Assembly: GCF_000379765.1 (NCBI RefSeq)
Contig: NZ_KB903465.1
Coordinates: 62,001 to 126,000 of the forward strand
Source of the DNA: Flexithrix dorotheae DSM 6795
Lineage (GTDB): Bacteria > Bacteroidota > Bacteroidia > Cytophagales > Flammeovirgaceae
Length of the DNA stretch: 64,000 nucleotides
Direction: 5' to 3'
Shown: piece by piece, positions 16,329 to 37,285 of the stretch
Layout of the letters: the number at the start of each line of letters is the position of its first letter
Position numbering within the stretch: the first letter of the stretch is position 1
Notes under the pieces: generated by a model
Database searches by the model: none
What the model was told of the DNA's origin: nothing
Seen by the model: only the letters and a program-made list of their open reading frames with translations
Program-made: the position numbers and the translations under genes

Positions 16329-16339
16329 TTTAAGGACAA
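16329..16339 (-). promoter_or_regulatory. Late motif copy 1 (TTGTCCTTAAA) before tape measure
   Basis: Perfect copy of the 11-bp motif on the coding strand, 46 bp before the tape-measure ATG and directly after the T-run of a terminator. Position after a terminator argues that it starts a new transcript. Confidence 0.6.
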
Positions 16340-16372
16340 AAAAAAGCATGACCAAACTCGGCCATGCTTTTT
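16337..16372 (-). terminator. Terminator upstream of the tape-measure gene
   Basis: On the minus strand AAAAGCATGGCC, a 6-nt loop and GGTCATGCTTTT pair with one G-T, followed by a continuous T-run. It ends the transcript of the small gene at 16400. Confidence 0.8.
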
Positions 16373-16399
16373 ACTATAAACAAAATGGAAGTTTAAACC

Positions 16400-16609
16400 T
16401 TATCCCTGTCCATCACCATCATCATCTATTTCATCAAAACCCAGCTCAGTTTCTGCTTTGAAATAAGCTTCATTGAAGGCAATGACTACCTTTTTTACTC
16501 TATCCTTAAAAAGGAACTGCACTACTTTACTATCTTTTTTCTTACTCACAGCCTCCACCAATGCAGTAGTGGCAGTTTGAAGAATTAACGGAAAAAATGC
16601 TTTTAACAT
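16400..16609 (-). CDS. Small late protein, hydrophobic N-terminus, acidic C-terminus
   Basis: 69 residues from the ATG at 16609; a TTG start three codons earlier is also open. The N-terminus MLKAFFPLILQTATTALVE is amphipathic/hydrophobic, the middle basic (KDRVKKV) and the end acidic (DEIDDDGDG). It has its own late motif upstream (16684) and its own terminator downstream, so it is a single-gene unit next to the tape measure. It could be a chaperone or minor virion protein. Unrecognised. Confidence 0.6.
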   Translation of the reverse strand: MLKAFFPLILQTATTALVEAVSKKKDSKVVQFLFKDRVKKVVIAFNEAYFKAETELGFDEIDDDGDGQG

Positions 16610-16683
16610 GATTTTCAATTTTTAATGAATGATTAATTAATCAATTATTTAGAGTTACTAATGTGGGGTTTATTCAGCTGGGG

Positions 16684-16694
16684 TTTAAGGACAA
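16684..16694 (-). promoter_or_regulatory. Late motif copy 2 (TTGTCCTTAAA)
   Basis: Perfect copy located directly after the stop codon of the 800-aa gene, about 75 bp before the ATG of the small gene at 16609. Extended match CTTGTCCTTAAA is shared with copies 3, 4 and 5. Confidence 0.6.
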
Positions 16695-16696
16695 GA

Positions 16697-19099
16697 CTAT
16701 TGCTTAGTAATATCAATAATCCCCACATATGCGAACTGGCTACCAGCCCGCACTGAGACGGAAAAGGTAACTTCTGTTACTCCTGTTATTGTATATAAAA
16801 CTCCATTATCGTCTGTATTATAATCTACATCGTCAGTACCTGCATCAAAATAATTATTCGAGTTAGCACCCTTTGCCGGGTTTGTATGATTTGTTAGCCC
16901 GTTTTCATTACCAACATTTGCAGATCTCGAAGTTCCTCCAGCCCGAGCTCCTGTTAGAAAAATGGTGTATGTTTCACCTATATCAAAACCAGAAAATTTC
17001 AATCTCATAGGAAGGTTTCCATTACCACTCCATAGAAACCAGCTATCAACCCATGCAGTATTTGGGTACTTGGTTGTGGATGAATTTGCGCCCGTGTCAT
17101 TACTCCCTTTGCCATCGGCATATCCATTGTCACCTTCTTGCAAAAGTTCCATACTTATTCCACTTGCATTGTTGCTAGTTGTGATTAATTCTCCATAATC
17201 TTGTGGAATTTGATCTTCGAAGTTATTCCAGTGGTTCCCGTTTACGTCCGGAGTTCCACTTACTACACTATTTCCACCATCACGGCCTAAATCTACAAGG
17301 ATCCTCTCCGTTTCATCTACATCATTTACAGAGACAGAAAACGATTCTGAATAAGTACCGAAAGCGGTTGAAACCTGAATCCTACATGAATAACTTGATT
17401 TCGTCTCAAAATCAAATACCTCATTTGCTCTAAGATTAGAGCCAGAGATATTAAAAGACGCATTATCAGTATCACCTGAACCTGATATCAAAGAATAAGT
17501 AGGGCTGCCATCGCCTGTAAAAGTTAAAGATCCTATTATGTCGTTGATACTATTGTTTTCATTTATAGAATTTGAACTTAATGCTATATCTGAAGGTGGT
17601 GTATCAGCAAGGTTATTTATATTTATTGTAAAAGACTTTTCAAAACTTCCACCAAAATTTGAAGATCTAACCCTGATTGAATATGATGTTTTGGATTCAT
17701 AATCAAAAACCTGTGAAGCTCTTAAACTTTGACCTGAAATATTGAAACTAGCGTTGTCATTGTCTCCCGTACCACTTACAAGTGAATAAGTATTTGGTTC
17801 GGAAACATCGCTTGTTAATACTCCTACTACATCATTTATATTATTGCCTTCATTAATCGATGAACTTGATAATAAAATATCTGTTGGCGCATCCTGATCT
17901 ACGGTTGCAATTGCGTAAACCGTATGTCGTACAATGTATTTTTTTGGATCATAAGGACTTGCAGAGCCATCATTAAACATGAACACCTCGCTTGATGAAT
18001 CGTAAAGTTCACCCGTACCACCTTGTTTCACTCGAATTTCATAATTCTTAGTCCCGGACAAATGAGGACTTGAAAGGGTTAACTCTAAATTAGAGCCGTT
18101 AATCACTCCCGTAAAACTTTCATTTTGTGAATCGGTATCATTCCACAATTGAATCCCAAAATTCCCACTACCTTGAACAGCTCCAGAGGCTCCCAGAACT
18201 GGAATAGTAAATTTTGAAACCCCGTCAAAACTAGGAGTTCCAAGCCTTAATTCTTCCCAACCAGAACTAAACAATTCACTATAAATTGACCTGGCAAACA
18301 TTACCCCCTCATACCTCTCTCCATGAGAGGTAATATGTATATTGTCTCCCTGATAATCTGCTCGGTATCTTGAATGTGAGATATGTACATTACTATATTT
18401 TGAAGCCTTCTCATGAAGCTGAATAGAGTAGTCTGGACTACCAACTAACCTTTGTTGATCTGCAAATACATGCACTTGGCTTGTATCCTGTTCACTATGC
18501 AAATGAGGTATTACATCTGTTCTAAAGTCATTTATTAAATCAACAAATTGATCACCGTACGGAGTTGGACTGTTATTTCCAGTTCCTCCATGCATCCAAA
18601 TTAGGTGCACTTTATATTTCCATCCGTTTGAATCGCATATTGTTTTTACCCTTGAAACACTTGAAATTGCTTCCTCAAAAAGTCCGGTTGAACCTCCTTT
18701 GCTTAGCTGGGTAATTGTTTTTCCTCCTGATGCATGAATTGTTACTACATACCGGAAATGTTTATTATTTACAAAATCATCTAATTGCTGCCCAAGTGAG
18801 GTTGCAATAGTTTCCACATTTGAAGTTGGAGCTGGTCCACCTGTAGAGTTGAACGTGTCACCTTCGGTTAGCTGTACCAAATTACCGGAATTATTGACCT
18901 CTAAAGGACCATCTTGCAATGTCAAAACATTACTTACTCCACTTGTTGTTAATGCTGGACTAGAATTATAACCACCAGCTTGACTTTGCCCTAAAACAAC
19001 AAAGTGGTGTACAGTTATAGCCTTTTTAACTATAACAAACTGAGCCATAACACCAAGACTTAAACTGAGTGCTAAGATTAAAAAAAATAGTCTTTTCAT
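16697..19099 (-). CDS. Secreted-type SGNH-like esterase with cadherin-like repeats
   Basis: 800 residues. A signal peptide (KRLFFLILALSLSLGVMAQ) precedes a domain with VVLGQSQAGG at about 35-43. That resembles the GQSN(M/A)xG block I of sialate O-acetylesterase/CE6 SGNH hydrolases; a late HITSHGERYEG (about residue 257) could carry the catalytic His. Two cadherin-like repeats follow (about 405-500 and 505-600; both contain DNASFNISG and FDYE/FDFETK). The C-terminal 200 residues look like a jelly-roll carbohydrate-binding module. It is the last of a three-gene unit with a fibre-like gene. It may deacetylate surface glycans during adsorption, but the signal peptide suggests export from the lysogen or producing cell. 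Confidence 0.65.
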   Translation of the reverse strand: MKRLFFLILALSLSLGVMAQFVIVKKAITVHHFVVLGQSQAGGYNSSPALTTSGVSNVLTLQDGPLEVNNSGNLVQLTEGDTFNSTGGPAPTSNVETIATSLGQQLDDFVNNKHFRYVVTIHASGGKTITQLSKGGSTGLFEEAISSVSRVKTICDSNGWKYKVHLIWMHGGTGNNSPTPYGDQFVDLINDFRTDVIPHLHSEQDTSQVHVFADQQRLVGSPDYSIQLHEKASKYSNVHISHSRYRADYQGDNIHITSHGERYEGVMFARSIYSELFSSGWEELRLGTPSFDGVSKFTIPVLGASGAVQGSGNFGIQLWNDTDSQNESFTGVINGSNLELTLSSPHLSGTKNYEIRVKQGGTGELYDSSSEVFMFNDGSASPYDPKKYIVRHTVYAIATVDQDAPTDILLSSSSINEGNNINDVVGVLTSDVSEPNTYSLVSGTGDNDNASFNISGQSLRASQVFDYESKTSYSIRVRSSNFGGSFEKSFTININNLADTPPSDIALSSNSINENNSINDIIGSLTFTGDGSPTYSLISGSGDTDNASFNISGSNLRANEVFDFETKSSYSCRIQVSTAFGTYSESFSVSVNDVDETERILVDLGRDGGNSVVSGTPDVNGNHWNNFEDQIPQDYGELITTSNNASGISMELLQEGDNGYADGKGSNDTGANSSTTKYPNTAWVDSWFLWSGNGNLPMRLKFSGFDIGETYTIFLTGARAGGTSRSANVGNENGLTNHTNPAKGANSNNYFDAGTDDVDYNTDDNGVLYTITGVTEVTFSVSVRAGSQFAYVGIIDITKQ

Positions 19100-19105
19100 A
19101 GCTAG

Positions 19106-20371
19106 TTAGTTTGTTCGGGGTATAGTGATTGAAACATATCCTGATACACCTGTTGCGATCACCTCCAAAACATCAGTAGCAGCAAAGGAAGTAGAACCAG
19201 TTTCACTTGAATTGTTTTTTTCAAATGTTACCGTGCCTGTTCCAGTTTTATAAGTGGTAACTAGGTTGTAAGTAATATTCTCATGAATGGGTATGTAAAC
19301 GGTTCCATCAGCTTCAAACTGGATGACTAAAGGTTGGTATACATAATTTGAAATCTGAGACCTTGTAATTGTTAAGGCAGAGGCATGCTGGGTTACATTA
19401 GACTCAGCAATCCTAGCATCAGCAAAAACACCAGTTGTGATTTTGGTCGTTCCCAAATTAGGTATTTCCGTACTGGTTAAATTGGTTGAAAAAACTCCAG
19501 CTGTTAAATCTAAACCTGCACCTGCAGTATATGTGGTATTTTGATCCACATAATTGCTAGAGTGAATTGTGCCTTGTCCGGATTGCGTCCAATCCACACC
19601 TCCTCCACCTTCAGAAATTGTTACCCATCCACCATCTTGCCTTCCATACTTATTTCCATCGCTGGGGGCATCTTGGAGATAAATAGAAAGATTTGGTGTA
19701 TTGGTGAAGTTCGAATAATTTAAATAGAATGCAGGAGCCTGGCCATTTAAAGCCTCAGCATTATCAGCAATCTGATCATTATCCGTATCATAATCAGATT
19801 TAAGCATATCTCCAGTACCTCCGCCAACGGAAAGAGCTGTAATTTGAGCCTGCAGTTTTCCAAAGGCTTCCAGGAAATTATCTGAAGATACAATATTGGA
19901 TGAACTCCCCAGGCTTAAACCTGTTAAAAGTGTCTCCCTTGATCTTTCTGGAGTAAAGTAAAGGTTCCCGTTTTCTGTAATTTGTCCCGTGTTAGTAGGG
20001 ATGGTTGGACGATTGGTCAGTGTACCATAATCATGTGTATGTCCTACGTCACTTTTTCCTGAAAACAGATTCATTAGATCTATTTGGTTGGAAATATCTC
20101 CTGTCACACTTCCCCATGGAACGTCTGCCATTACGTTTGTTCCAATGATCAAGGCTTTACTCACATCTTCAAGCGCATCACCTGAATTGGTTAAAGCAAG
20201 TATCTTCCAGAGGGTATTGTTTTGCTCGTTGAGAATTAAAGTGTTTTTTGAGAATGACCTACCTAGTGCGGTTGTAGAATCTGAAACCACTCTTATAGAG
20301 ATGGGTTTTGTTTGAGCATATCCACTAAGGGATATTACCATTATTAGCAATAGAATTATTCTTTTCATCAT
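19106..20371 (-). CDS. Tail-fibre-like protein with signal peptide
   Basis: 421 residues starting with a signal peptide (KRIILLLIMVISLSGYAQ). The body has features of phage fibres: GHTHDYGTLTNRPTIP, GDMLKSDYDTDNDQIADNAEALNGQ, and QSGQGTIHSSNYVDQNTTYTAG, i.e. Gly/Asn/Thr-rich beta-solenoid-like repeats; the last 80 residues form a beta-rich end domain. A signal peptide on a virion fibre is not expected, because virions assemble in the cytoplasm. ATGA overlap with the upstream 115-aa gene and a 6-bp gap to the 800-aa gene place the three in one operon. Confidence 0.65.
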   Translation of the reverse strand: MMKRIILLLIMVISLSGYAQTKPISIRVVSDSTTALGRSFSKNTLILNEQNNTLWKILALTNSGDALEDVSKALIIGTNVMADVPWGSVTGDISNQIDLMNLFSGKSDVGHTHDYGTLTNRPTIPTNTGQITENGNLYFTPERSRETLLTGLSLGSSSNIVSSDNFLEAFGKLQAQITALSVGGGTGDMLKSDYDTDNDQIADNAEALNGQAPAFYLNYSNFTNTPNLSIYLQDAPSDGNKYGRQDGGWVTISEGGGGVDWTQSGQGTIHSSNYVDQNTTYTAGAGLDLTAGVFSTNLTSTEIPNLGTTKITTGVFADARIAESNVTQHASALTITRSQISNYVYQPLVIQFEADGTVYIPIHENITYNLVTTYKTGTGTVTFEKNNSSETGSTSFAATDVLEVIATGVSGYVSITIPRTN

Positions 20372-20715
20372 GAAGTTATTTGTATAAGTGCAATAAAAAT
20401 TACTTTCTCTTCCGGGTCCAGATTTGCAGAAAAAACTACTCGGTTATTTTGAATGTCAATGGCATAATCCTCATCCTTAACCAATACAGCCCCATTCCTT
20501 ACAATTGATAAATCTCCATACTTTGCAAAAGGAATATTGATAAACGATTCTCCTCCAGCTGCTACAAAAATTTGAGTGGATAATCCATAATTAAATACAG
20601 CCTCAATTATTTTTAATAGTGCATCACCTACCATCACCTTTGTTATACTTTCTGGTAATTGAGCATCTTTTATTGCTTGTGCCCTTGCATTAAGTTGAGC
20701 TTTTGTCTCTGCCAT
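20368..20715 (-). CDS. Late-region protein of 115 aa, possible fibre connector
   Basis: The N-terminus is helical (TKAQLNARAQAIKDAQLPESITKVMVGDALLKII); the rest is beta-rich (VAAGGESFINIPFAKYGDLSIVRNGAVLVKDEDYAIDIQNN). The second half resembles short adhesin/fibre head domains in which Val/Ile strands alternate with turns. It is the first gene of the unit that encodes the two signal-peptide proteins and begins 43 bp after late motif copy 3. No named family recognised; a baseplate or fibre-attachment role is only inferred. Confidence 0.6.
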   Translation of the reverse strand: MAETKAQLNARAQAIKDAQLPESITKVMVGDALLKIIEAVFNYGLSTQIFVAAGGESFINIPFAKYGDLSIVRNGAVLVKDEDYAIDIQNNRVVFSANLDPEEKVIFIALIQITS

Positions 20716-20757
20716 TCTGAACTTTTTTTTGTAAAATTGGTAGGATACCAGGAGAGG

Positions 20758-20768
20758 TTTAAGGACAA
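20758..20768 (-). promoter_or_regulatory. Late motif copy 3 (TTGTCCTTAAA)
   Basis: Perfect copy 43 bp before the 20715 start and directly after the stop codon of the gene at 20772. It sits in the apex of an inverted repeat GAGGTTTA ... TAAACCTC, so it could be displayed in a hairpin. Confidence 0.6.
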
Positions 20769-20771
20769 GAC

Positions 20772-21299
20772 CTAAACCTCAAAAATAAAATCAGGAGCAA
20801 AATCAGCATGTTTGGTAATGATTTCTGAAGTGACTTTGGCCATCCTAGAATAGACTAATTTGGAAAACCATTTTTTTCTTTTGTGCTTATAACTGCCATC
20901 AGTCCTGGAGAAGGCAATGGCCCAGGCTATTCTTTGAAGCTGTGATTCTTTTGGCAATCTGGCCGGTTTTTTCTGATAACCAGGTACATATTTAAAAGCA
21001 GATAATCCTTTCTTTTCCACCCACTTTTTAAAGATCTCTCCGGATTGGTTTTGGGTAAAATCCAGTGTTCTTAATTCTCGAAATGAACCATGAGCTTTAA
21101 ATTCAATTATTGCCTCATGGTACTCCTTTTCTCCCCTCGAAACCAAATCTGTACTAATGGATTTTAATAATTCCCCGGTAATATCCAGCTTATTTTTCTT
21201 TACTGCCTGGGCCAATAAAATGGCTGTTTCCTGGAGCCAGTTTTCCAGGGTTAAATCTACATCCTTGTACAGCTCTGGAAGATTCACCTTTTTGGCCAT
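20772..21299 (-). CDS. Putative head-tail or tail completion protein
   Basis: 175 residues, mixed helical/beta, basic in the second half (KPARLPKESQLQRIAWAIAFSRTDGSYKHKRKKWFSK). Located immediately after the portal gene with the stop and start codons adjoining, which in phages is often the place of minor head or tail-completion (gp10-like) proteins. Elements such as LLAQAVKKNKLDITGELLKSI are compatible with that family, whose members begin with a helix and then LxxSI. No decisive motif. Confidence 0.5.
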   Translation of the reverse strand: MAKKVNLPELYKDVDLTLENWLQETAILLAQAVKKNKLDITGELLKSISTDLVSRGEKEYHEAIIEFKAHGSFRELRTLDFTQNQSGEIFKKWVEKKGLSAFKYVPGYQKKPARLPKESQLQRIAWAIAFSRTDGSYKHKRKKWFSKLVYSRMAKVTSEIITKHADFAPDFIFEV

Positions 21300-22624
21300 T
21301 ATTCAGCAGAGACCTCCTGTCCCCCTTTATGATTATCATCCAGTTTGGTGAGTTCGTAATCAATAATGCCAAATTGAATTTCCCTGTCCCAGCCATTTAC
21401 TTTTTTCACCTGGTAAAGTGGTTCCATTACCTTTTTTCGGTAGGATGGCACTTTGAGTTTTAAAAACATATCATAGGAGATCCTTTTGTCTGATCCTGAT
21501 GAAAGTTTCCCCTGGGTTTGGATGCCTGCAATACTGGGATCAATGCCATGGGCACTGGCAATGGCCACATTACTTTGCTCATAGAGTTTGACAAAAGCAT
21601 CATCAAATAGCTCTGGTTTGACCGGCTCTATGTGGATGCCTCCAATTTCTTTTCCCGTATTCTGATCGATCACATATTTAGATACAAAGGCTTTCCCTGC
21701 ATTTTTAGCTCCGGCCAGAAAACTATTCATTTCATCTCTTAGGTCTGTTTCCGCCTTTTTCATCTTTTCCTCATCATCTGCAAACTGTTTGAAATAGTCC
21801 CTGGGGATTTTCACGATCCACCTGATCTGATACATATTATCCATGCCCTTATCATGAAAAACAGGGATTTTATTGGCCATTTTCATCCAGTTCTGACTGC
21901 CTATGTAATCAGGTAATCCATAATAATGGCAGCCTGGAAAATACCTTTTTGAATGGCTGATGGTATTGGAATGGGCCAGCGGTTTTTTCGGATCAAAAAC
22001 CATTATTCTTTTAGCCTCAGCCTCTGTGAAATTCATCCAGTCATTGAGCAAATAATGGCTGACTTTTCGGTTTTTATCCGGCCTTCCAGCTCTGGCCAGA
22101 CTGGCATCTACATGCTTAATCCTGGCTATTTTCTTTTTTGATTTGGACCTGATTTTTTCATCCCAGATATTGCCTAACCAGCTTAAATCTGTTGCCCTTT
22201 TGGTAATAAATTCTTCAATATTATTCTCCTCCAGCCAGTCTTCTATTTCTGGATTTTTTACCCTGATTGGTTTAAATACACCCTCCTCCACTTCTATTTC
22301 TTTATAAAGAATCACCTTTTTACCTGAGATAAAATCAATCTTGGTATTGATAATACCAGGAGCAATATTATTTTGTAAGCCCAGCCTGAGCAAATCGGTT
22401 GGAAACAAATTATTCTCTCCCCAGGGGACATACCTTAAATGGTGGGTCCTGGTATTTTGAACTTCCAGGAAGTTATGCACCAAATTATCAGGATCCTTTT
22501 GGGGATGGTTTCTATCCTTAGTCTCTGAAGTGATCACCATCATGGCCTTGGCCTCTGGTAGGTAGTGCATATTATCTACCTCTTTGATATTCATCAGGCC
22601 ATATAAACTTTCTTCATTTCTCAT
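21299..22624 (-). CDS. Phage portal protein
   Basis: 441 residues, expected to form the dodecameric DNA channel at the capsid vertex. Seen: NLFPTDLLRLGLQNNIAPGIINTKIDFISGKK, typical for the portal clip/stem start in Bacteroidota phages; a central TDLSWLGNIWDEKI; and a C-terminal SAHGIDPSIAGIQTQGKLSSGSDKRISYDMF, the part of portals that reads GVPPxxxG in others. Position 570 bp after terminase large subunit supports the call. ATGA overlap with the gene upstream. Confidence 0.82.
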   Translation of the reverse strand: MRNEESLYGLMNIKEVDNMHYLPEAKAMMVITSETKDRNHPQKDPDNLVHNFLEVQNTRTHHLRYVPWGENNLFPTDLLRLGLQNNIAPGIINTKIDFISGKKVILYKEIEVEEGVFKPIRVKNPEIEDWLEENNIEEFITKRATDLSWLGNIWDEKIRSKSKKKIARIKHVDASLARAGRPDKNRKVSHYLLNDWMNFTEAEAKRIMVFDPKKPLAHSNTISHSKRYFPGCHYYGLPDYIGSQNWMKMANKIPVFHDKGMDNMYQIRWIVKIPRDYFKQFADDEEKMKKAETDLRDEMNSFLAGAKNAGKAFVSKYVIDQNTGKEIGGIHIEPVKPELFDDAFVKLYEQSNVAIASAHGIDPSIAGIQTQGKLSSGSDKRISYDMFLKLKVPSYRKKVMEPLYQVKKVNGWDREIQFGIIDYELTKLDDNHKGGQEVSAE

Positions 22625-22941
22625 TTGTCATGATTTATTTTTATACCATTGATTGCCACCCACAAGTCTGTGGATACTGAAAAGTTTTGCCTGGTTGCCA
22701 GGTCAAAGAAACGTACCGTTCGCTGTTGTACATAGTCATAGCGCAGGCGTTTGGCTTGTCTGGTTTCCCTGGTCACTTCTTCTATTTTGTCACTGCCTTC
22801 AGGATCTTTTTTGCATACATTTTCTTTCTCTTTAAACTCTCCATCCTGTTTGTAGTAGGCTATGCTGAAGGTATGCAGCCTGCCATTGATGAGTTCGGTA
22901 TCAGCCAGTCTGATGGCTGCTTTCAATCCTATTTCTTTCAT
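22621..22941 (-). CDS. Unrecognised protein preceding the portal gene (106 aa)
   Basis: The open frame extends to 23025, but I choose the internal ATG at 22941 (MKEIGLKAAIRLAD). The late motif copy 4 lies 30 bp before this ATG, at the same spacing as for other late units, and would otherwise be inside coding sequence. The protein ends QQRTVRFFDLATRQNFSVSTDLWVAINGIKI, a beta-rich segment. It overlaps the portal start by ATGA. A function in packaging or head completion is possible but not shown. Confidence 0.6.
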   Translation of the reverse strand: MKEIGLKAAIRLADTELINGRLHTFSIAYYKQDGEFKEKENVCKKDPEGSDKIEEVTRETRQAKRLRYDYVQQRTVRFFDLATRQNFSVSTDLWVAINGIKINHDK

Positions 22942-22971
22942 GAGGTAAAGATGAAAAGGATGGGCAATTTC

Positions 22972-22982
22972 TTTAAGGACAA
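22972..22982 (-). promoter_or_regulatory. Late motif copy 4 (TTGTCCTTAAA)
   Basis: Perfect copy upstream of the 106-aa gene/portal unit, 30 bp before the ATG at 22941. It lies within the longer open frame to 23025, which is the reason for preferring the later start. Confidence 0.55.
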
Positions 22983-23190
22983 GCCATGTTGCCATGGCAA
23001 TATTAAATTGCCATTGCCCTCTCATATTTCATCAAAATGGATTTTGATTGTTGCCTTTTTGTTAATGGGCGGCCTGCTCTCCCCCTTTGTTTTTGTACAA
23101 TATTGCCTGTTTTGAAAAAAACTAACTTTTTGATCTTCAAAAGTTTAAGCTGATTTTGGGGTTAAAAAAAGTACAAAAGCCCTGTTTTTT

Positions 23191-26469: not shown

Positions 26470-27467
26470 ACTATCCAAAATCCGCTTTTGTCTTGATCAT
26501 TATAAGAGGGCAATTTGTTACTTTCTGGATTGTGGTAACTGCCATTTTCCTTAAATCCTGGGTAATCATCAGCATTGTCCTGCAAAAATTGCTTTAATTG
26601 TTCGGTGTAAATTTCTGCTGTTTCCCTGGTGGATTTCCTTAAGTTTTCAATCCTTTTGCCATCGGCTAGAGACCTGTTTCCAGATTGGAATTCCCGGATA
26701 TATAAACCATCTCCAATAATTTCCACCTGGATAAAGTTTAAGCCTTCCGATATTCCCCAGTAAGCCAGGGCTGGCTGGATTTTCTCCAATAGTTGCCTTT
26801 GCATGGCTGATAAGGGAGCAGAAAGTTTAATTTCATCCTGCAAAGCCTGTTTTAAGCTATCAAACTCAGTACTTCCCAAAACTGGTCTGATTTTAAAGTT
26901 TTCAGCATTTTTTAAATAGGGCCTGAAGGCCTGGTAAGTTTTAAGGGAGGAAAGTGAGGTGTTAAACCTGGAAAACTCGGTTTTATTCCTAATAAACAAA
27001 TCCCTTGTTTGGGTAAAGGCCTCTGAGGCCACCCAAATAGGAAAATCATCTGCATTTTTCTCCAGGTATTTTAAGGCCAGATCGGCATATCTATAGCCTT
27101 GTTTTTGGTAGGATAATTCTATTTTATTTACTGCCTGGTTGGTGGCCGGTCTGGAGGTATCTGCATCATCAGCATAGCTCTGCTGGATGCCCATTTCACT
27201 CACATGCACATTGATATGTGGAGCAGCTTCAAACAAGGTGTAATTTGATAAAGCAGCCTGGAGCAATTTCAATAATTTTAAATCCTTTCCAGCAGTAGTT
27301 TCCGCTTCATATTTGGCCAGAGTATCCTCATATTGCTCCTCTCCAATTAATGGAATGATATATTCGGCTGTGGCAACATTTACAAACCGTTTTAAAGAAT
27401 CAAAATTGTAATTCTTATTAATGGAGGCATGCTCCCTGATCTCTGAAGTTGTTTTTATAATTCCCAT
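26466..27467 (-). CDS. Late-region virion-type protein, 333 aa
   Basis: First gene of the kinase-terminase unit, starting 30 bp after late motif copy 5. The protein is helical with LKRFVNVATAEYIIPLIGEEQYEDTL (about 24-49), LLKLLQAALSNYTLFEAAPHINVHVSEMGIQQ (about 63-94) and a late ALAYWGISEGLNFIQVEIIGDGLYIREFQS. The middle pattern (ALANYTLxxAxPxxxVxxxxxGIQ) recurs in Bacteroidota phages in proteins placed close to head genes, which I remember as DUF6712-like. Likely a head-tail connector or minor head protein; not proven. Confidence 0.6.
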   Translation of the reverse strand: MGIIKTTSEIREHASINKNYNFDSLKRFVNVATAEYIIPLIGEEQYEDTLAKYEAETTAGKDLKLLKLLQAALSNYTLFEAAPHINVHVSEMGIQQSYADDADTSRPATNQAVNKIELSYQKQGYRYADLALKYLEKNADDFPIWVASEAFTQTRDLFIRNKTEFSRFNTSLSSLKTYQAFRPYLKNAENFKIRPVLGSTEFDSLKQALQDEIKLSAPLSAMQRQLLEKIQPALAYWGISEGLNFIQVEIIGDGLYIREFQSGNRSLADGKRIENLRKSTRETAEIYTEQLKQFLQDNADDYPGFKENGSYHNPESNKLPSYNDQDKSGFWIV

Positions 27468-27497
27468 AAGGCAATATTGCCTTTTTGTTTGCCGGGA

Positions 27498-27508
27498 TTT
27501 AAGGACAA
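27498..27508 (-). promoter_or_regulatory. Late motif copy 5 (TTGTCCTTAAA)
   Basis: Perfect copy 30 bp before the ATG at 27467. The gene upstream on the map lies on the opposite strand, so a promoter must be located here. Confidence 0.65.
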
Positions 27509-28023: not shown

Positions 28024-28024
28024 C

Positions 28025-28204: not shown

Positions 28205-28236
28205 TTTGAATTTTTTTATGTTAAAAATATAATATA

Positions 28237-28254
28237 CCCCCCTTTTCAGGGGGG
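28237..28254 (-). terminator. Hairpin CCCCCC-loop-GGGGGG
   Basis: On the minus strand CCCCCC TGAAAA GGGGGG followed by an AT-rich stretch ending in five T. It lies between the stop of the gene at 28261 and the ATG at 28204, so it may terminate or attenuate the lysis unit. Confidence 0.5.
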
Positions 28255-28260
28255 ATTTGA

Positions 28261-28527: not shown

Positions 28528-28630
28528 TTTGTGGTTCGTTTTTCGGCTGGTGATCCCCAGTGTTTTAGTGAATTATTATAGTACAAATATAGTTGCCATT
28601 TGGCAACTATACAAATTTATTTTCACTTTT

Positions 28631-30846: not shown

Positions 30847-32465
30847 TATAACCTGGTTAAGGATACGGATTCAATTCTTCCTTTAAACCCGCCATGATCA
30901 GGGGTATCTCTTTTGGAAGCCGATAAGAAAAATGGATCGGGTTGGGTATTTCCAGGGCCGGTATTAAATGTCCTGGTCACAATGCCCGGACCAGTGATGG
31001 CCACTCCTGACAGGTTGCCAAAAAGCATCAAGGCCCCACTTTCATATTCAGATAAATAAGCCTGGAATTTATAAAAGGTATCTGCCTGAATGGTTTCTGC
31101 CATATTAAACTCTGCCCTTAAAATCTCGGTAAAAGCACTGCCCGCTTCATCAGTAAAATCCACTGAAATACCACTTGGCCACAGGACTACTTTGTCATTG
31201 GTATCAATCAGTCTCCAGTTGCCAATGCCTTCAAATTCAGAGACCACATCCAAATCAAGATCCTGTAATAATTCAATGGGATTACTGCCTGGGCTTCCCG
31301 GATCATCAATGTTTATTCTGTTGATTATCCTTCCAAAAGATTTCCTTTTATAGCCTTCCTGGTAGGAAAAAGAAAGGCCGATTAAATCATTATCTTTTTC
31401 ATGATAAACAAACTCACTGTTTTCAATTTCTATTGGGGTGAATTCATTTTTGGAAATGACATAAACTTCATCTGAATGGATAAAATCCTGCAGGTAATCC
31501 CTTTCCCCTTCAGCCAGCCAGCTGGTGTTTGCATTGCCTGCTAAGCGTGTTTCGATACTAGCTGCTTTACTCACTTCAAAGCCTCCTTCTTTCCTAAAAG
31601 CATAGGATTTGGCTGAGCTCACCAGTTTGGCAAATTCACCAGCACAAACCAGTGTATCATAACCACCAAGGGAGTTTTTAAACAAAAAGGCCATTTTAGT
31701 AAAATAGTGATTTTTGAGTCTGTAATTAAAAGTTTCAGATATCACTGCATTGTCACTATCGGTTAAATACACACTCCAGCCAGTGATGGGTTTGGTGGCA
31801 TTGGCTTTGATATTTAAAGCTTCATAACCCACCGGTATTCTAATCATTCCCCTGGTAGTGGTCAAATCATGGGCGCTATAGTTTAAAGTGGTATTATCAT
31901 TATAAAGGAGTCTTACATTCACCTGAATGGTGGCATTGCCCTCTACATCTAAAAAGTAATACAAATATTCTGGCACATCATGGGAGGTGAATTTGGGATC
32001 TGGGGCCGGGGTAAAAAATTTCCTTGCGGTATTGATAAAATGATCCTGCAGGGAAAGATCAAAAGCAGCTCTTTCCAAACCCGCTGGAATGGCTTTGAAG
32101 TTGATGGTAGAATGGAGACTTTCCTGCCCATCTTTGACTTCATAAACCTGAACGGTGTAGAAAATATGGGTGGCACAAAGCTCCATATTGTTGGCCCCAA
32201 ATTGCGGTTTTTCTGCTTTGCAAACTGTTTTTAATTGGTCCTGGATTTCAAAGGTGGTTTTGCCATTTTCATCCACTCCCCTCAGCCTGGAAATTACCAG
32301 CTCCTGGGGGGCAAAGTTGCTCGCTGCTTTAAAAAGTTTAATCCTGATTTTATAGGTATTGTAATTACCAAAATCACTGCTTTGGAAGGTGAAATAAACC
32401 GGGTTATTCACCCAGGCAATTCCTCCTGAATCATCTGTACTGTTATAAGTTATTGCTCCAGCCAT
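30846..32465 (-). CDS. Tail protein, 539 aa (distal tail/baseplate region)
   Basis: Beta-rich throughout. N-terminus AGAITYNSTDDSGGIAWVNNPVYFTFQSSDFGNYN, then several Ig-like stretches; the last 140 residues (from LLQDLDLDVVSEFEGIGNWRLID) look like a carbohydrate-binding jelly roll with VSLTRL at the end. Stop/start overlap TAATG with the next tail gene. A receptor-interaction part at the tail tip is plausible. No named family recognised. Confidence 0.55.
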   Translation of the reverse strand: MAGAITYNSTDDSGGIAWVNNPVYFTFQSSDFGNYNTYKIRIKLFKAASNFAPQELVISRLRGVDENGKTTFEIQDQLKTVCKAEKPQFGANNMELCATHIFYTVQVYEVKDGQESLHSTINFKAIPAGLERAAFDLSLQDHFINTARKFFTPAPDPKFTSHDVPEYLYYFLDVEGNATIQVNVRLLYNDNTTLNYSAHDLTTTRGMIRIPVGYEALNIKANATKPITGWSVYLTDSDNAVISETFNYRLKNHYFTKMAFLFKNSLGGYDTLVCAGEFAKLVSSAKSYAFRKEGGFEVSKAASIETRLAGNANTSWLAEGERDYLQDFIHSDEVYVISKNEFTPIEIENSEFVYHEKDNDLIGLSFSYQEGYKRKSFGRIINRINIDDPGSPGSNPIELLQDLDLDVVSEFEGIGNWRLIDTNDKVVLWPSGISVDFTDEAGSAFTEILRAEFNMAETIQADTFYKFQAYLSEYESGALMLFGNLSGVAITGPGIVTRTFNTGPGNTQPDPFFLSASKRDTPDHGGFKGRIESVSLTRL

Positions 32466-32493
32466 TATTAAATGATTTTACTTAAACTTCTGT

Positions 32494-33018
32494 TTACTTG
32501 AACTCTTGGGAAAACTCAGGAGCAAAATAATTTACCGTTTCTTCCTGGTCCCAAAAGGATTCATCCTTGCAGATTTTCGAATCTTCCACCAGTTCGAATT
32601 CCACCCTCCAGCCATAGCAATTGTCATGAAGTAGTCCATACAATGGGTCCAGACTAAACTGGCCAATGTCTTCCTCCATATCAAAATCAATTGCAATCTT
32701 TCTAATGAGCTGCTCGATATAATTTTCAAGGGCATTAAACACCAGCTCATCCTGTTTGTCATAGTCATCTTTGGGCACACTCGATATCAGGGCAAAGGCA
32801 ATTTTATATTCTTTTTGCAGGCCTGTTGAAAGCCCACCATCAAAACTTTTTTCCGGCAATTCCAGGAATAAACAGGGGTAGTCTATTTCACTTTTTAAGG
32901 ATTCAATAATCCGGTTAAAACCTCCAAACTTGAAACTTTTAATTTTGGAAGTCATCCCAACTAAAGCCTCAAAATATGCCTTTATATCATTGAAGTTGTG
33001 GATCTCTATTTCGCTCAT
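32494..33018 (-). CDS. Tail-completion-like protein, 174 aa
   Basis: Mixed alpha/beta: HNFNDIKAYFEALVGMTSKIKSFKFGG, DYPCLFLELPEK, YKIAFALISSVPKDDYDKQDELVFNALENYIEQLIRKI and a C-terminal GWRVEFELVED. This order (helix, strand pair, long helix, strand) fits minor tail or head-tail joining proteins. ATGA overlap with the 243-aa gene upstream. Confidence 0.45.
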   Translation of the reverse strand: MSEIEIHNFNDIKAYFEALVGMTSKIKSFKFGGFNRIIESLKSEIDYPCLFLELPEKSFDGGLSTGLQKEYKIAFALISSVPKDDYDKQDELVFNALENYIEQLIRKIAIDFDMEEDIGQFSLDPLYGLLHDNCYGWRVEFELVEDSKICKDESFWDQEETVNYFAPEFSQEFK

Positions 33019-33746
33019 GATTCGGTTTCAATTTTATCATAGTGTTTTTTGACCAGGATCAAACAGATCTCTGTAATGGGGGTTTCCTTCACTTTTTCCA
33101 AATCTCCAATAATTCCGGTTTCGGCAATGGCAATGAAAGTACCTGCCCAGCCCAATGGATCCTTTCCTCCTGATCCTCCCTGGAAAATGGGCTTGTACTT
33201 TTTAGCCAATAGATTTTTATTGGCCGTCATATAAAGCAGGGCTGAAAGTTTTTGCCTGGGATCAAGGTTTTTAAAAAGCTCCTTTCTTTTTTCAATGCCT
33301 TCCTCCTCCAGTTTGCATCTTTTTTCCCCATCCAATTCCCGGAAATACACCGCACATAAATCATCAAGTTTTTCAGGCTTTTCCTGCAGTTGATTGTAGT
33401 ACATATCCAGCATGGAATACTCTATGCCACTCATCAGCTTCATACTGGATTTGGGAGAATGATAAATTTGGTTATTGACCTTAATGGATTTTACCAGGGG
33501 AAGTGCGGGTAAATTGTCCACCCTCATCCAGTCCAAAAGCGTAATAATTTGAGCCAGCTGCACCTCATTCAAGCGGTTCAATAAATAAACCCTCTTCCCG
33601 ACTGTTTTAATCAGGAAAAGGGTTTTAATATCTTCATCTCTTGTTTCTGCATGGCATTCAATTAAATGCAGGCACATCTGATCGGTCAGGTCTTCATAGC
33701 TACCTGGTAATTGAAATTGAAAGTGACCAATTTTGATGTTATGCAT
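33015..33746 (-). CDS. Late protein of 243 aa, possible tail assembly chaperone
   Basis: Helical, soluble protein located immediately after the tail-tube-like gene, where tail assembly chaperones are encoded in many siphoviruses. Features: FQLPGSYEDLTDQMCLHLIECHAETRDEDIKT, NEVQLAQIITLLDWMRV and a Gly-rich FQGGSGGKDPLGWAGTFIAIAETG near residue 190. I see no obvious programmed frameshift site at its end. The role is inferred from position. Confidence 0.45.
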   Translation of the reverse strand: MHNIKIGHFQFQLPGSYEDLTDQMCLHLIECHAETRDEDIKTLFLIKTVGKRVYLLNRLNEVQLAQIITLLDWMRVDNLPALPLVKSIKVNNQIYHSPKSSMKLMSGIEYSMLDMYYNQLQEKPEKLDDLCAVYFRELDGEKRCKLEEEGIEKRKELFKNLDPRQKLSALLYMTANKNLLAKKYKPIFQGGSGGKDPLGWAGTFIAIAETGIIGDLEKVKETPITEICLILVKKHYDKIETES

Positions 33747-33750
33747 TTCA

Positions 33751-34275
33751 TTAAGCTGCTGGAGTTAATGGAATTTCTCCTTCATACTCATAAGGAGGAT
33801 CCAGGCTGGAAACCACTTTTAAGGAAATGGACATCTGGTTTCTGTCATTCCCGCCTTTGCCTCCGGTGGAGCCTTCATTCGGATCAACAGCTTCAAGGGC
33901 ATCAAAAAGATCACCCAATATCCATTTTTTTCCATTGGTATCTACAGCAATCCCGATCATATCGGTATTGTTAATTTTATCCATGGCTACCAATAATTCT
34001 GCCCTTAATTTGGGGTGCATAAACTCTACTCCCGATGTCCAGGACTTTCCTTTACTTGGTCCCTGAGTGCTAATATTCATCCTGGCTGCTTCATCTTTTA
34101 CAAATTCCAATTTCTTGAAATTTGTCCCGCTTTCCATGGTGATGTCAGTGGTAACTTTTCCATCCACTGCTGCAGGAATGGAAAGTACATCCTTTTGTAC
34201 TGCATAATAAAATGCGCTTAACCCAGCAGCATTTTTCTCGCAGTTGATATTCAATAATTCATCTAAAGTGCACAT
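33751..34275 (-). CDS. Probable major tail tube protein
   Basis: 174 residues; compact beta-rich protein with ENCEK/CEKNAAGLSAFYYAV at the N-terminus, then DITMESGTNFKKLEFVKDEAARMNISTQGPSKGKSWTSGVEFMHPKLRAELLVAMDKI. That matches the pattern of Bacteroidota tail-tube proteins as I know them (a strand pair, KLxFVKDEA, a domain ending in KVVSSLDPPYEYEG). The size and its place between capsid/connector genes and other tail genes support it. A leader motif GTTTAGCTTAAT (34287-34298 on the plus strand) precedes the start by 11 nt and also precedes the capsid gene. Confidence 0.65.
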   Translation of the reverse strand: MCTLDELLNINCEKNAAGLSAFYYAVQKDVLSIPAAVDGKVTTDITMESGTNFKKLEFVKDEAARMNISTQGPSKGKSWTSGVEFMHPKLRAELLVAMDKINNTDMIGIAVDTNGKKWILGDLFDALEAVDPNEGSTGGKGGNDRNQMSISLKVVSSLDPPYEYEGEIPLTPAA

Positions 34276-34286
34276 GTTTGTTTGCC

Positions 34287-34298
34287 GTTTAGCTTAAT
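34287..34298 (-). promoter_or_regulatory. Leader motif ATTAAGCTAAAC before tail tube gene
   Basis: A 12-mer identical to that before the capsid gene (35864-35875), each ending 10-11 nt before the ATG. Spacing suggests a translation-initiation element rather than a promoter. Confidence 0.4.
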
Positions 34299-34309
34299 TA
34301 AAATCAATA

Positions 34310-34549
34310 TTATTTCTTCACCTCTTTAGCAGGTGAAGCAGTCACCTTTTTAAGGTAAGCCGGGCAGGTTTCCAGGATAAATTTTAAAATATTCTGCCTG
34401 CCTGCTGCATTTTGGGCCAGCTCATTCAGCTTCTTTTCATCAAAATGATAAGGAGCTTTATTGTACCTGATCTGGAAGCCTTTCACCGCCCACTCATACT
34501 TTTCTGAGTCAATGGAAAATACCACTGGCTCTGCTGTTTTTTCTGCCAT
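34310..34549 (-). CDS. Small late protein (79 aa)
   Basis: Starts MAEKTAEPVVFSIDSEKYEWAVKGFQIRYNKAPYHFDEKKLNELAQN and ends with the helix ILKFILETCPAYLKKVTASPAKEVKK. It lies between the 86-aa gene and the tail-tube-like gene, 11 nt after a partial copy (AAGCTAAAC) of the leader motif. Likely a connector or capsid accessory protein; no family recognised. Confidence 0.55.
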   Translation of the reverse strand: MAEKTAEPVVFSIDSEKYEWAVKGFQIRYNKAPYHFDEKKLNELAQNAAGRQNILKFILETCPAYLKKVTASPAKEVKK

Positions 34550-34582
34550 TTTACTTTATTGTTTAGCTTTTGAAAGTGGGGA

Positions 34583-34843
34583 TTATTTAGAAGTATCTGC
34601 TTCAGTTTCTGCAGCTTCCACCTCAACTTCTTCCAGGATGTTTTGCCCTTCTACCTCAATCAAGGCATTGAGTAACCTTTCATGGGATTTTACATCTTCC
34701 ATGATCTTTTCTGTGATATGCTTTTTACCATTGACCGAGTAAAAAGCAGCCACTTTAAATTTGAATGACCTATCCCCAATTTTGATTACATCTTTGGGGA
34801 TAGTCAATTTATTTTCTGTTTTTTTGACTTGTTTTTTAGCCAT
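34583..34843 (-). CDS. Small late protein downstream of the capsid gene (86 aa)
   Basis: Basic N-terminus (AKKQVKKTENKLTIP), a beta hairpin IKIGDRSFKFKVAAFYSVNGKKHIT, a helix HERLLNALIEVEGQNILEEVE and an acidic tail. Position after the major capsid protein suggests a head decoration or completion protein. Unrecognised. Confidence 0.5.
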   Translation of the reverse strand: MAKKQVKKTENKLTIPKDVIKIGDRSFKFKVAAFYSVNGKKHITEKIMEDVKSHERLLNALIEVEGQNILEEVEVEAAETEADTSK

Positions 34844-34881
34844 TTCTATAAGGTTAAAAAATGATTGGATTCAATTAAAAA

Positions 34882-35853
34882 TTAAGCCTGGTCGTTGGTG
34901 ATGATATAATCCTCTCCGGCCAAAGTGAAAGTGGAAATACCACATCCAATTTTGCCATCCATCAGGATATTGATCACCCTTTTCTCCTGCTCTATCTTAA
35001 TCCTGTTCATATCTGATAACAAATCAGTTCCCATCTGCAGAATTCCTTCAGGTACAATGATTACCCTGCCCGATCCACTCAGTCCTGGCAATGGCACAAA
35101 GGAGGCATTCCCCTCTGATTTTTCCAGGGTCATTTGCTTAAAGGAATTATAGGTCAAGTGATCTCCATAACTATCCTTATAGTTTTTGTAGTAATTCGAA
35201 GATATATTTCTACCACAGAAGATTTTCACTTTTTCATACTTCAACACCTCTGGAAGGGCATCCCACATTTGCTCTATTTTAGCCACTGCATTCTGATCGG
35301 TAATGGCTCCGGTCGCTACTGGGGCAATGGTGGTGGCGGTAATGGCATCGGCTATTTGCTTTAAAAAGCCATCACAAACTTCCAGGGGATTCACCACTCC
35401 GGCTCCTGCTGCAGTCCCGGCATTATACACCGCTTTCCACACGATATTCTCCATAGAGGCCTGAACTTTCCTTAAAATCTGACCCATTAAAAACCCTTCA
35501 AAATGGTATTCGTAAGGTTTTAATTTCCCAGATTGCAATCTACCTTTCCATGTTTTGTAAAGGGTTAAGGGCACAATCTTCAAATCCACCTGCCAGTCCC
35601 TTACTTTCAGAATCCTGGCTTTAAATCCAAAGGCATCATTTGTTGGGTTCCAGCCATCTTCTTTGCCCACTTGAACAATCTCTCCAATCTCAGGCACAAC
35701 CATTGGTTCCTCGTCCTGAATATCGGTATTCAATTGGATATGATTAGCCGAGGCAAAGGTGTTCATCGCCTGGATAAACAAATCTATTCCTGGTCCTCTG
35801 CTGTACGCCCCAAGCGTAGCTACCAGGTTAGTTAAATCTATTGAGTTTGGCAT
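34882..35853 (-). CDS. Major capsid protein
   Basis: 323 residues, placed directly after the S49-type maturation protease/scaffold gene. HK97-fold features: N-terminal helix (LTNLVATLGAYSRGPGIDLFIQAMNT), the middle DWQVDLKIVPLTLYKTWKGRLQSG strand-rich part, the helix WDALPEVLKYEKVKIFCGRNISSNYYKNYKDSYG for the axial domain, and a C-terminal VINILMDGKIGCGISTFTLAGEDYIITND strand pattern. No large cleaved N-terminal delta domain is evident, in line with a separate scaffold on the protease. Context makes the call good; family not named. Confidence 0.75.
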   Translation of the reverse strand: MPNSIDLTNLVATLGAYSRGPGIDLFIQAMNTFASANHIQLNTDIQDEEPMVVPEIGEIVQVGKEDGWNPTNDAFGFKARILKVRDWQVDLKIVPLTLYKTWKGRLQSGKLKPYEYHFEGFLMGQILRKVQASMENIVWKAVYNAGTAAGAGVVNPLEVCDGFLKQIADAITATTIAPVATGAITDQNAVAKIEQMWDALPEVLKYEKVKIFCGRNISSNYYKNYKDSYGDHLTYNSFKQMTLEKSEGNASFVPLPGLSGSGRVIIVPEGILQMGTDLLSDMNRIKIEQEKRVINILMDGKIGCGISTFTLAGEDYIITNDQA

Positions 35854-35863
35854 TTGTCTTTTA

Positions 35864-35875
35864 GTTTAGCTTAAT
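35864..35875 (-). promoter_or_regulatory. Leader motif ATTAAGCTAAAC before capsid gene
   Basis: Exact 12-bp match to the element before the tail tube gene, ending 10 nt upstream of the capsid ATG; a 9-bp version (34561-34569) precedes the gene at 34549. Confidence 0.4.
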
Positions 35876-35879
35876 AAAA

Positions 35880-37241
35880 TTATAATTCGACTTTAGAATT
35901 TTTTGCTGCAGCTTTTGCAGCTGCTGCCTCTGCTGCCCATTCGGTTTGTTCCCATACTGGCTTTTCCTGGCTTTTGGCAGTTACATCCTCTTCTCCTTTT
36001 TCTACCGATTCTACCACAGAAACTGTCTCTGGATCTGCATCAAGTTTTGCCTTTAAATTGGCCTTTTCAGCTTTTAAAGAAGTAACCTCTGCTTCCAGAT
36101 CACCAACCTTCTTGTTAGAAGCTGTCACTTCATCACTTTTGGTTTTCAATTGAGCTGTAAGCTCATCTACCTTAGCATTTTTAGCTTCAAGTTGCTCTTT
36201 GAATTCATCCCTTTCCTTCAGGGCATCTTCTAAGTTTCCCAAAACTTTTTCCTCATCTTCCTCACTTACATTTTTAGAAAAAAAAGAAGATAAAATGGAG
36301 AATTTTCCTTTTGACATGGTATTTGAATTTTTGTTATTATAATCTTTACTTAATTCCACAACCCTTTCTATAGCCAGTTGCATATTGCCTTTTTTATCAG
36401 CCAACCCGGAAGTAATTGTTTCATCTCCCATGAATGTTGCCCCTTTAAAAATTCGATCTTCGTATTTAGAATTGATTTTTGATCCTCGGTCAGATTTTAC
36501 CGAGTCGATAATATTTTGTGCAAGAGGATTAATCAACTCCTCTAAAACAGCAGATTTTGAACCTTCTCCTCCCTCTCTAAGCCTCCTATACCAACTATTC
36601 TTCAATGGACTTAAATCCGAATAAATATCTTCGAATTTCACACCTAACTTTTTATAATATTCAGTGTCATCCACAAAAGGAAACATGGTTCCGATTGAAC
36701 CTAGAATATCAGAATCCTGGGAAATGATAATTTCTTTTGTTGAGGCTGCAATTCTATATGCTGCAGAGCCACAAACACCATTTACAAAGGTTACAACTGG
36801 CTTCACATTTTCTCTTATTACGGAGCATAATATCTCTGAAGCAGTTGATACTCCTCCACCAGAATCCATATCCAACACTACTCCAACTACTTCAGGATCA
36901 GCATAAGCTTCTCGAATAAACCTGGCTAAAGTTTTTGTACCAAATCCACCATAGTAATAAAGGTTGTATTTTGTTATCGTACCCTGAACAGGTATGATCA
37001 TTACCTTTTTCACTTCCTCATTTTGCTCACCTTCGGAACTTGTAAAAAGTCTTGAAAAAAGCTCTGAGGATAACTCAATAGAATAGGGATTATGTGCTTT
37101 TTGAGCTTGTTCCAGGTCAATACTCATTGTTGAGTTTTCTCCATTTAGCAAGCTGAAAAATAAAGGCACATTGCTGTAAAAATAATCTGGCATCATTGAC
37201 CAGACTCCATTTAAAATATCGTATCGAAGTTGTTCTATCAT
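35880..37241 (-). CDS. Head maturation protease (S49/SppA type) fused to scaffold
   Basis: 453 residues. The N-terminal half is an S49 peptidase: VVGVVLDMDSGGGVSTAS (about 118-135), then TFVNGVCGSAAYRIAAS with nucleophile Ser159, and LSPLKNSW with the likely general base Lys214. Residues about 290-420 are a long coiled coil (ALKERDEFKEQLEAKNAKVDELTAQLKTKSDEV region), the layout of protease-scaffold fusions that are processed during capsid assembly. The end is Ala-rich. First gene of the capsid-tail unit, 33 bp after late motif copy 6. Confidence 0.88.
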   Translation of the reverse strand: MIEQLRYDILNGVWSMMPDYFYSNVPLFFSLLNGENSTMSIDLEQAQKAHNPYSIELSSELFSRLFTSSEGEQNEEVKKVMIIPVQGTITKYNLYYYGGFGTKTLARFIREAYADPEVVGVVLDMDSGGGVSTASEILCSVIRENVKPVVTFVNGVCGSAAYRIAASTKEIIISQDSDILGSIGTMFPFVDDTEYYKKLGVKFEDIYSDLSPLKNSWYRRLREGGEGSKSAVLEELINPLAQNIIDSVKSDRGSKINSKYEDRIFKGATFMGDETITSGLADKKGNMQLAIERVVELSKDYNNKNSNTMSKGKFSILSSFFSKNVSEEDEEKVLGNLEDALKERDEFKEQLEAKNAKVDELTAQLKTKSDEVTASNKKVGDLEAEVTSLKAEKANLKAKLDADPETVSVVESVEKGEEDVTAKSQEKPVWEQTEWAAEAAAAKAAAKNSKVEL

Positions 37242-37274
37242 TACAACCGCAATTTGGTCGTAATTTGCAAGGCT

Positions 37275-37285
37275 TTTAAGGACAA
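37275..37285 (-). promoter_or_regulatory. Late motif copy 6 (TTGTCCTTAAA) before the capsid unit
   Basis: Perfect copy 33 bp before the protease/scaffold ATG and 4 bp after the stop codon of the lyase-like gene. It would drive protease, capsid, tail and amidase genes. Confidence 0.65.

Follow-up and report, generated by a model that had tools for sequence, protein, structure and literature searches.

A proposed late promoter that appears to be shared by many Bacteroidota viruses and is probably switched on by a virus-made protein

The DNA considered here is a 64,000-nucleotide (nt) stretch of Flexithrix dorotheae DSM 6795 (contig NZ_KB903465.1, positions 62,001 to 126,000), called the window below, and the element in question is a short repeat that stands in front of the late genes of a prophage. 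The late (virion) gene region served by this repeat extends from 13649 to 41357 on the minus strand, and was recognised from its open reading frames (ORFs) and from PHROG matches of its reverse-strand genes to head protease, portal, terminase and tail fibre, while the tape measure was assigned by clustering with annotated tape measures. The repeat, the 11-mer TTGTCCTTAAA, is found six times in exact form in this region, always on the minus strand and each time before a late unit, at precisely the places given in an earlier note on this DNA, which had proposed it as a phage-specific late promoter.

The first copy, at 16329-16339 (core GTCCT at 16333-16337), precedes the tape measure gene, with 46 nt from the end of the motif to the ATG at 16282. 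The second, at 16684-16694, lies 74 nt before a gene for a protein of 69 amino acids (aa; ATG 16609), and the third, at 20758-20768, lies 42 nt before the unit of a 115-aa gene, fibre and tail protein (ATG 20715). The copies at 22972-22982 and 27498-27508 are both 30 nt from their start codons, namely ATG 22941 of the 106-aa/portal unit, a start assigned from a 50% identical protein of a related phage (L010, see below), and ATG 27467 of the 333-aa adaptor/kinase/terminase unit. Finally, the copy at 37275-37285 is 33 nt from ATG 37241 of the head protease/capsid/tail unit. The surroundings described in the earlier note are also borne out by eye for four of the copies: copy 1 directly follows a terminator, seen as a hairpin and a T-run, and copies 2, 3 and 6 begin 2-4 nt past the preceding stop codon.

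Two further sites had been overlooked. One is a seventh exact copy on the plus strand (58936-58946), which lies within a host ORF (58351-59202) and is probably due to chance. The other is a degenerate late box, AGTCCTGAAA, at 41392-41396 on the minus strand, before a 182-aa gene with its ATG at 41357. This box overlaps the stop codon of the preceding gene, the candidate regulator discussed below, so that the stop codon and the box of the next gene share letters (41392-41398, AAATAGTCCTG).

In 100 shuffles of the window, a mean of 0.14 matches to TTGTCCTTAAA was obtained and never more than one, to be compared with the seven exact occurrences, six on the minus and one on the plus strand; the chance expectation is indeed far below one, as had been claimed. 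The motif could also have been common in the host, but the whole 9.54-Mb genome contains 26 copies, six of them in the prophage late region and 20 elsewhere, against 45 for a control with the letters reversed. The repeat is therefore not a common host element and is not enriched genome-wide.

A diverged relative of the phage is found on IMG/VR contig 3300027607_000128 (L010/L024), whose terminase is 67% identical to that of the window in the best segment. It carries three copies of CTGTCCTTAAA, and these precede the relatives of the 333-aa gene, of the 106-aa gene (50% identical) and of the protease (35% identical; L024 1995). The letters common to both phages, TGTCCTTAAA, are thus kept before three orthologous genes, and at both places that were aligned, the 333-aa and 106-aa genes, they stand out amid diverged flanks. 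At these two genes the distance from box to ATG is the same in the window and in L010 (30 nt from the box), and at the protease GTCCT lies 34 nt from the ATG in the relative and 37 nt in the window. GTCCT is also present in both phages before the 182/179-aa gene behind the candidate regulator gene, at 34 nt in L024 (start 6071). A separate arrangement is seen at L010 525-609, where two late boxes point outwards in opposite directions with about 5 bp between them; this divergent pair lies between a 174-aa and a 334-aa gene, each box being 34 nt from its ATG.

More relatives were collected by terminase homology: prophages in three genomes (G072, G320 and G174), Polaribacter phage Leef_1, Cellulophaga phage Ingeline_1, Flavobacterium phages 6H and laban6-1 (laban in the following), Bacteroides phage BT-TP2, Porphyromonas phage028a, the gut contig MT835542 and Mea-Yong924-1, which is labelled as a Microcystis phage. 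Together with the window and L010, these 11 relatives constitute a set of 13 phages. Eleven of the 13, the window included, have boxes with the GTCCT core before late genes, and the other two, laban and 6H, have variants. In an unsupervised count of k-mers upstream of ORFs, repeats with the GTCCT core came first or among the top in most phages: CCCACGTCCTA in G320, TGTCCTATT in G174, TTnCGTCCTA in G072, TGTCCTTTT in Leef_1, TGTCCTTTTA in Ingeline_1, TnTGTCCTTT in BT-TP2, and TGnCCTTTAT in MT835542 and CGCTGTCCnT in Mea-Yong, these last two with scores close to those of shuffled sequence. The same count gave TTCATGTCAC for laban and no standout repeat for 6H or for the Porphyromonas phage, which does have GTCCT sites before its protease, its tape measure and a 686-aa gene. 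Scans of genome contigs with the terminase and the candidate regulator found no relatives, and scans of viral contigs with the protease, portal and tape measure returned only the phage itself. As a side observation, a phage labelled as infecting Microcystis (L070, MZ447863.1) has GTCCT sites with TTTG-like −7 elements at 13128, 23808 and 28730, one of them strict in the sense defined below, and also encodes a protein of the regulator family; in reality it may infect a Bacteroidota bacterium that accompanies Microcystis.

It is important to point out that the box does not stand alone. The pooled sites follow the pattern GTCCT-N22-YAnnTTTG, with a second element at a fixed spacing that corresponds to the Bacteroidota −7 box. 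In the logo, built from 62 of 76 GTCCT sites (distance 30-80 nt; 11 phages, with 6H and laban left out), this element appears as A at +23, T at +26, T at +27, a weaker T at +28 and G at +29 after GTCCT. No further position downstream of the box exceeds 0.5 bits, and there is no conserved TTTG around −33. According to PMC6847099, the −7 element of F. johnsoniae spans T-12 to G-5, with the transcription start 4-5 nt beyond, and the −33 element is much less evident even among host promoters. Adopting this register would place GTCCT at −39 to −35, the −7 element at −12 to −5 and +1 at +34 after GTCCT.

YAnnTTTG at a fixed distance is a property of the pooled logo, whereas the window sites have a degenerate form of it, and the start position is a predicted one. 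Counted from GTCCT, all six share CA at +22/+23 and T at +27; as a background, A at +23 with T at +27 is found at 9.9% of window positions. The six minus-strand elements are, in order of position, CAATTTGG (16303-16310, with a predicted +1 at about 16298 and, from the computed register, a leader of about 16 nt), CACATTAG (16658-16665, +1 at about 16653), CAATTTTA (20732-20739, +1 at about 20727), CATCTTTA (22946-22953, +1 at 22941), CAATATTG (27472-27479, +1 at 27467) and CAAATTGC (37249-37256, +1 at about 37244). The degenerate box AGTCCTGAAA, which is followed by TTCCTTTG in the same register, precedes the 182-aa gene at a distance of exactly 34 nt from its ATG, so that the predicted +1 is 41357. 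The statement in the earlier note that no TAnnTTTG occurs at a fixed distance accordingly holds for the full consensus but not for the degenerate element. On this evidence the sites look like hybrid promoters, composed of a phage box and a host sigma −7 box. The combination is not a plain host promoter, as it is without the −33 element, although that element is weak in hosts too. A phage-specific upstream box and a host sigma element at fixed spacing, as expected of a phage promoter that depends on an activator and uses host sigma, are both present.

We now turn to the protein that could read the box. The proposed late activator is a 194-aa protein encoded at 41396-41980 on the minus strand, with a family domain and a C-terminal HTH_28-like helix-turn-helix (HTH). 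Its HTH_28 match is weak (E 0.01, below the Pfam cut-off), whereas that of the L024 counterpart, 40% identical, passes the cut-off. A first profile, made from these two HTH proteins, matched 59 of 390 genomes, but nearly all listed matches, that of its own genome excepted, were confined to the C-terminal HTH, and the family was therefore rebuilt from the 13 phages. The profile of a small protein common to six other phages aligns to the 194-aa family (hhalign probability 86%, E 5.6e-6), and the nine-member profile, window protein included, found four more members, in G320 (1e-14), laban (3.5e-9), Mea-Yong (9e-8) and 6H (5.7e-6). By profile, the family is present in all 13 phages. In clusters made with phmmer only, without profile extension, portal, terminase, adaptor, capsid and tail-region proteins also come close to being universal, and none of the other families that lack an evident virion role reaches all 13 phages. 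The regulator gene precedes the head protease in most annotated cases, but its place is not fixed.

PHROG and Pfam scans of family members gave no named activator family, and a transposase-type HTH in two members only. PHROG 21888 matches the 6H and laban regulators and no other member scanned, and has no function assigned. With an AlphaFold2 model of the 194-aa protein, calculated from a two-row alignment, the best match in a viral library is a 157-aa uncharacterised Leef_1 protein (E 0.014, probability 1.00), which by its length and label is probably the Leef_1 member of the family. Of the two proteins that the earlier note had put forward as possible readers, the one at 41396 fits, while the ribbon-helix-helix protein at 50262 was dropped, as it reaches only E 0.012 against the regulator profile. 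No GTCCT in the sense orientation is present in the 606 nt upstream of the regulator gene. The 600-bp gap there contains, at 42196-42442, a cluster of GGTTACAAC / TTGTAACCGTTGTAACC repeats that looks like iterons or early-factor binding sites and possibly controls the regulator or replication. Two terminator-like 43-nt copies, 93% identical and 457 bp apart, are found at 42525-42567 and 42982-43024, each behind a small gene.

The association of box and regulator was examined on loci chosen by the regulator. A search with a 13-row regulator alignment gave matches in 64 of the 390 genomes taken from the order and in 5 of the 395 taken from the phylum. Ranks 1-3 of this search were discovery loci, and 20 new loci of 30-40 kb each were taken as the test set, namely 19 of the 21 places ranked 4-24 (G601, on a short contig, and G496 were left out) and G442 at rank 40. 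A strict promoter was defined as GTCCT-N23-A-NN-TT-N-G within 110 nt upstream of ORFs. The test loci contain 39 of these, compared with a mean of 0.3 and a maximum of 2 for 29 other arrangements of the box letters, and at least one is present in 16 of the 20 loci. Five loci (G707, G745, G572a, G572b and G550) are close to the discovery prophage G072; without them, 35 of the 39 strict promoters remain, in 15 loci. In a search with an open box, GTCCT ranked first among the 5-mers in 10 of the 20 loci. It also ranked first in G359, a locus fetched for its terminase only, where a −7 element stands behind five of six GTCCT; a divergent regulator came to light there at a later point (E 5.8e-4, and 2e-29 after iteration). 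Both the regulator match and the box are absent from G126b, a locus that had been included on account of a terminase match.

As a control, four Bacteroidota phages (B40-8, 11b, B124-14 and FCL-2) and the host parts of the window were considered, and they have no family member and no GTCCT promoter; the control is a modest one, as few chance matches are expected. A control with shifted offsets scored at least as high as the true offset in several loci, but the shifts land on the flanks of the same box, and this confounded result is counted neither for nor against.

The position of the start codons provides a further indication. Of the 76 discovery sites, 19 have GTCCT at a distance of exactly 34 nt from the ATG, compared with 2, 2, 1 and 2 sites at 32, 33, 35 and 36 nt, respectively. 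In the test loci there are 58 strict hits on either strand, and 10 of them are followed by an ATG at +34, whereas each other offset between 30 and 41 has at most one. When the −7 pattern is relaxed, the ATG stands at +34 in 23 of 91 cases for the discovery set and in 17 of 158 for the test set, and no other offset from 30 to 60 exceeds 5 and 7, respectively; in all these tallies homologous sites of related phages are counted separately and are not all independent events. As transcription is expected to begin at +34, a leaderless form is predicted for many of the late mRNAs. In the window, the ATG of the 106-aa, 333-aa and 182-aa genes coincides with the predicted +1. For comparison, published work gives 5.5% leaderless mRNAs in F. 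psychrophilum (PMC9723704) and about 3.7% of 5' untranslated regions below 10 nt in B. thetaiotaomicron (PMC7366714), and describes Bacteroidota mRNAs as being without Shine-Dalgarno sequences (PMC6847099).

Laban and 6H are the two phages with variant boxes. Laban carries ATGTCAC (a GTCAC box) six times; at five of these sites a −7-like element follows in the same register, and four of the five are strict. In 6H, ATGTCT (a TGTCT box) occurs at four places in the same register under the relaxed pattern, two of them strict, and the sites include those before the protease and before the small gene that precedes the portal. The regulators of laban and 6H form a sister pair (98/89) in a 35-row tree and are placed beside that of Ingeline_1, a phage that keeps GTCCT. 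The Flavobacterium hosts of laban and 6H belong to the same class as the hosts of Leef_1 and Ingeline_1, and the change of box thus tracks the phage protein rather than the host class. It should be kept in mind that this is one event and that the deep branches of the tree are weak.

Taking these results together, we consider it quite likely that the repeats are the upstream half of activator-dependent late promoters, used by the phage HTH protein together with the host sigma-A polymerase. What can be read from the DNA itself is that the boxes are present in a fixed register with the −7 element, that they are conserved and occur together with the protein family, and that the start codons peak at 34 nt. 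From this we infer that the elements initiate transcription, that the HTH protein binds them and that the mRNAs are leaderless, as well as, throughout, the timing and activity of the promoters. The proposal of the earlier note, a phage-specific late promoter read by a phage factor, is the reading that best accommodates the boxes at orthologous places and the outcome for the loci picked by the regulator. In this mechanism, the promoter would consist of the GTCCT core at −39 to −35, a 22-nt spacer and a degenerate host sigma-A −7 element. In the lysogen, lacking a −33 element and having a poor −7 element, the late promoters would be ignored by the sigma-A polymerase and stay silent. After induction, the HTH protein would be made from another promoter, bind GTCCT and recruit or hold the sigma-A RNA polymerase at the −7 element. 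The late units (tape measure, fibres, portal, terminase, head) would then be activated in parallel, each from its own promoter, and in many of them the start codon would lie at the expected transcription start, giving a leaderless mRNA. In some phages the late promoter stands directly behind a T-run that resembles the terminator of the preceding unit, and this, together with the separate promoter for each unit, argues for a parallel switch-on rather than one long antiterminated transcript.

With less assurance, we also lean towards the broader proposal that one ancient and so far unrecognised activator family governs late transcription in a large share of the Bacteroidota tailed phages, by way of GTCCT and the sigma-A −7 element. 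The spacing would be tuned to a start at the A of the start codon, and leaderless mRNA would then be a main route to virion proteins in hosts where such mRNAs are rare.

A number of results weigh against this mechanism. The −7 elements of the window are poor, with C at −12 in six of six, and the pooled weight matrix is unspecific, since the reversed window scores up to 16.5 and one host position 17.9, compared with 13.0-15.3 for the six sites. Structural genes accompany the boxes as well, so that the HTH protein is not set apart by occurring together with them. Of the 13 aligned members, only those of the window and of L024 have the C-terminal HTH extension, and a Pfam scan of three other members gave no DNA-binding domain. 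The AlphaFold2 model is of moderate quality (mean pLDDT 70.8), and a fold search of the PDB with it gave no significant match. As to the test set, the strict promoter is absent from G572a, G572b, G429 (where the regulator frame is interrupted by a stop) and G674, the open-box search yielded no box in G126a and nothing for Leef_1 and several test loci, and some loci are near relatives of each other, so that the hits are not all independent. Finally, without the −7 requirement GTCCT is only fourth of the 30 arrangements (85 compared with a mean of 57.4), which means that it is the pair of elements that carries the signal.

We have also considered other explanations. The promoters could be as described, with the box read by another protein, either a host activator or a different phage protein. 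Namely, binding of the box by the HTH protein is a prediction, most members of its family are without a recognised DNA-binding domain, the portal, terminase, adaptor and capsid families also span 12-13 phages, and another regulator, which bears the annotation LuxR in Leef_1 and laban, is common to seven of the 13 phages. However, phmmer finds no LuxR-like protein in the window, L010, G072, G320, BT-TP2 or the Porphyromonas phage, TTGTCCTTAAA is not enriched in the host genome, and the box differs in the laban/6H regulator clade while Leef_1 and Ingeline_1, whose hosts are of the same class, keep GTCCT. We thus regard another reader as unlikely.

Late sigma factors are a known phage strategy, and the degenerate −7 element of the window could suggest that a phage-made sigma factor reads the entire promoter. 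Nevertheless, the downstream element agrees in consensus and register with that of host sigma-A (PMC6847099), and no sigma domain is present in the candidate protein, the window proteins having been scanned in part. With the host −7 element retained, this does not look like a phage-sigma promoter, and we find the option very improbable.

Even less credit can be given to an element at work in the RNA, where a boxA-like or leader signal would serve antitermination or translation. TTGTCCTTAAA loosely resembles boxA and its six copies are all sense-oriented upstream of genes, but the predicted +1 is found about 35 nt downstream of the box, the −7 register is fixed, and the peak of start codons at 34 nt is explained by the transcription start; a boxA-like RNA element was set aside, as the box would be upstream of the predicted start. 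A search of the assembly for ribosomal RNA, with a view to the host boxA, found none. That the repeat is due to chance or is non-regulatory is hardly credible, despite the 20 further copies of the 11-mer in the genome, given the 0.14 copies expected in the window, the conservation at orthologous places and the outcome of the permutation test.

The proposed promoter can be compared with known systems. With the sigma-A (sigma-ABfr) promoters of the Bacteroidota (−33 TTTG / −7 TAnnTTTG) it shares the downstream consensus and the expected distance to +1, but GTCCT at −39 to −35 replaces the −33 element, T-12 is C in six of six window sites, and the GTCCT form is seen before the late genes of one phage group. 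Middle promoters of T4 combine a MotA box with the host −10 element. Here, too, a phage box in the −30s would take the place of the host upstream element, with the host sigma element retained; the box and its position differ, however, and late rather than middle genes are concerned. Ogr of P2 and C of Mu are small phage activators of late genes, and the present case is similar in that a small phage protein, predicted to bind DNA, would turn on several late units, with a box at a different position. We classify the system as a class of late promoters that depend on an activator, the activators forming a family not named so far.

If correct, this would provide a signature by which late operons and their activator could be annotated in phages of the gut, the mouth and the sea, and possibly an inducible expression switch for Bacteroidota. 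It would also constitute a natural test of leaderless translation in a phylum without Shine-Dalgarno sequences. A literature search, with most subscription journals outside its scope, gave no description of late promoters or of a late activator for these phages, and in a term search of a paper on the isolation of flavobacterial phages (PMC8776804) the terms "promoter" and "late gene" were absent. Regarding the wider gene content of the relatives, Ingeline_1 (L066 21703-22491) and Leef_1 (L063 28136-28996) have, besides another annotated integrase, a second tyrosine-recombinase gene (Pfam), which sits between the replication and the late genes.

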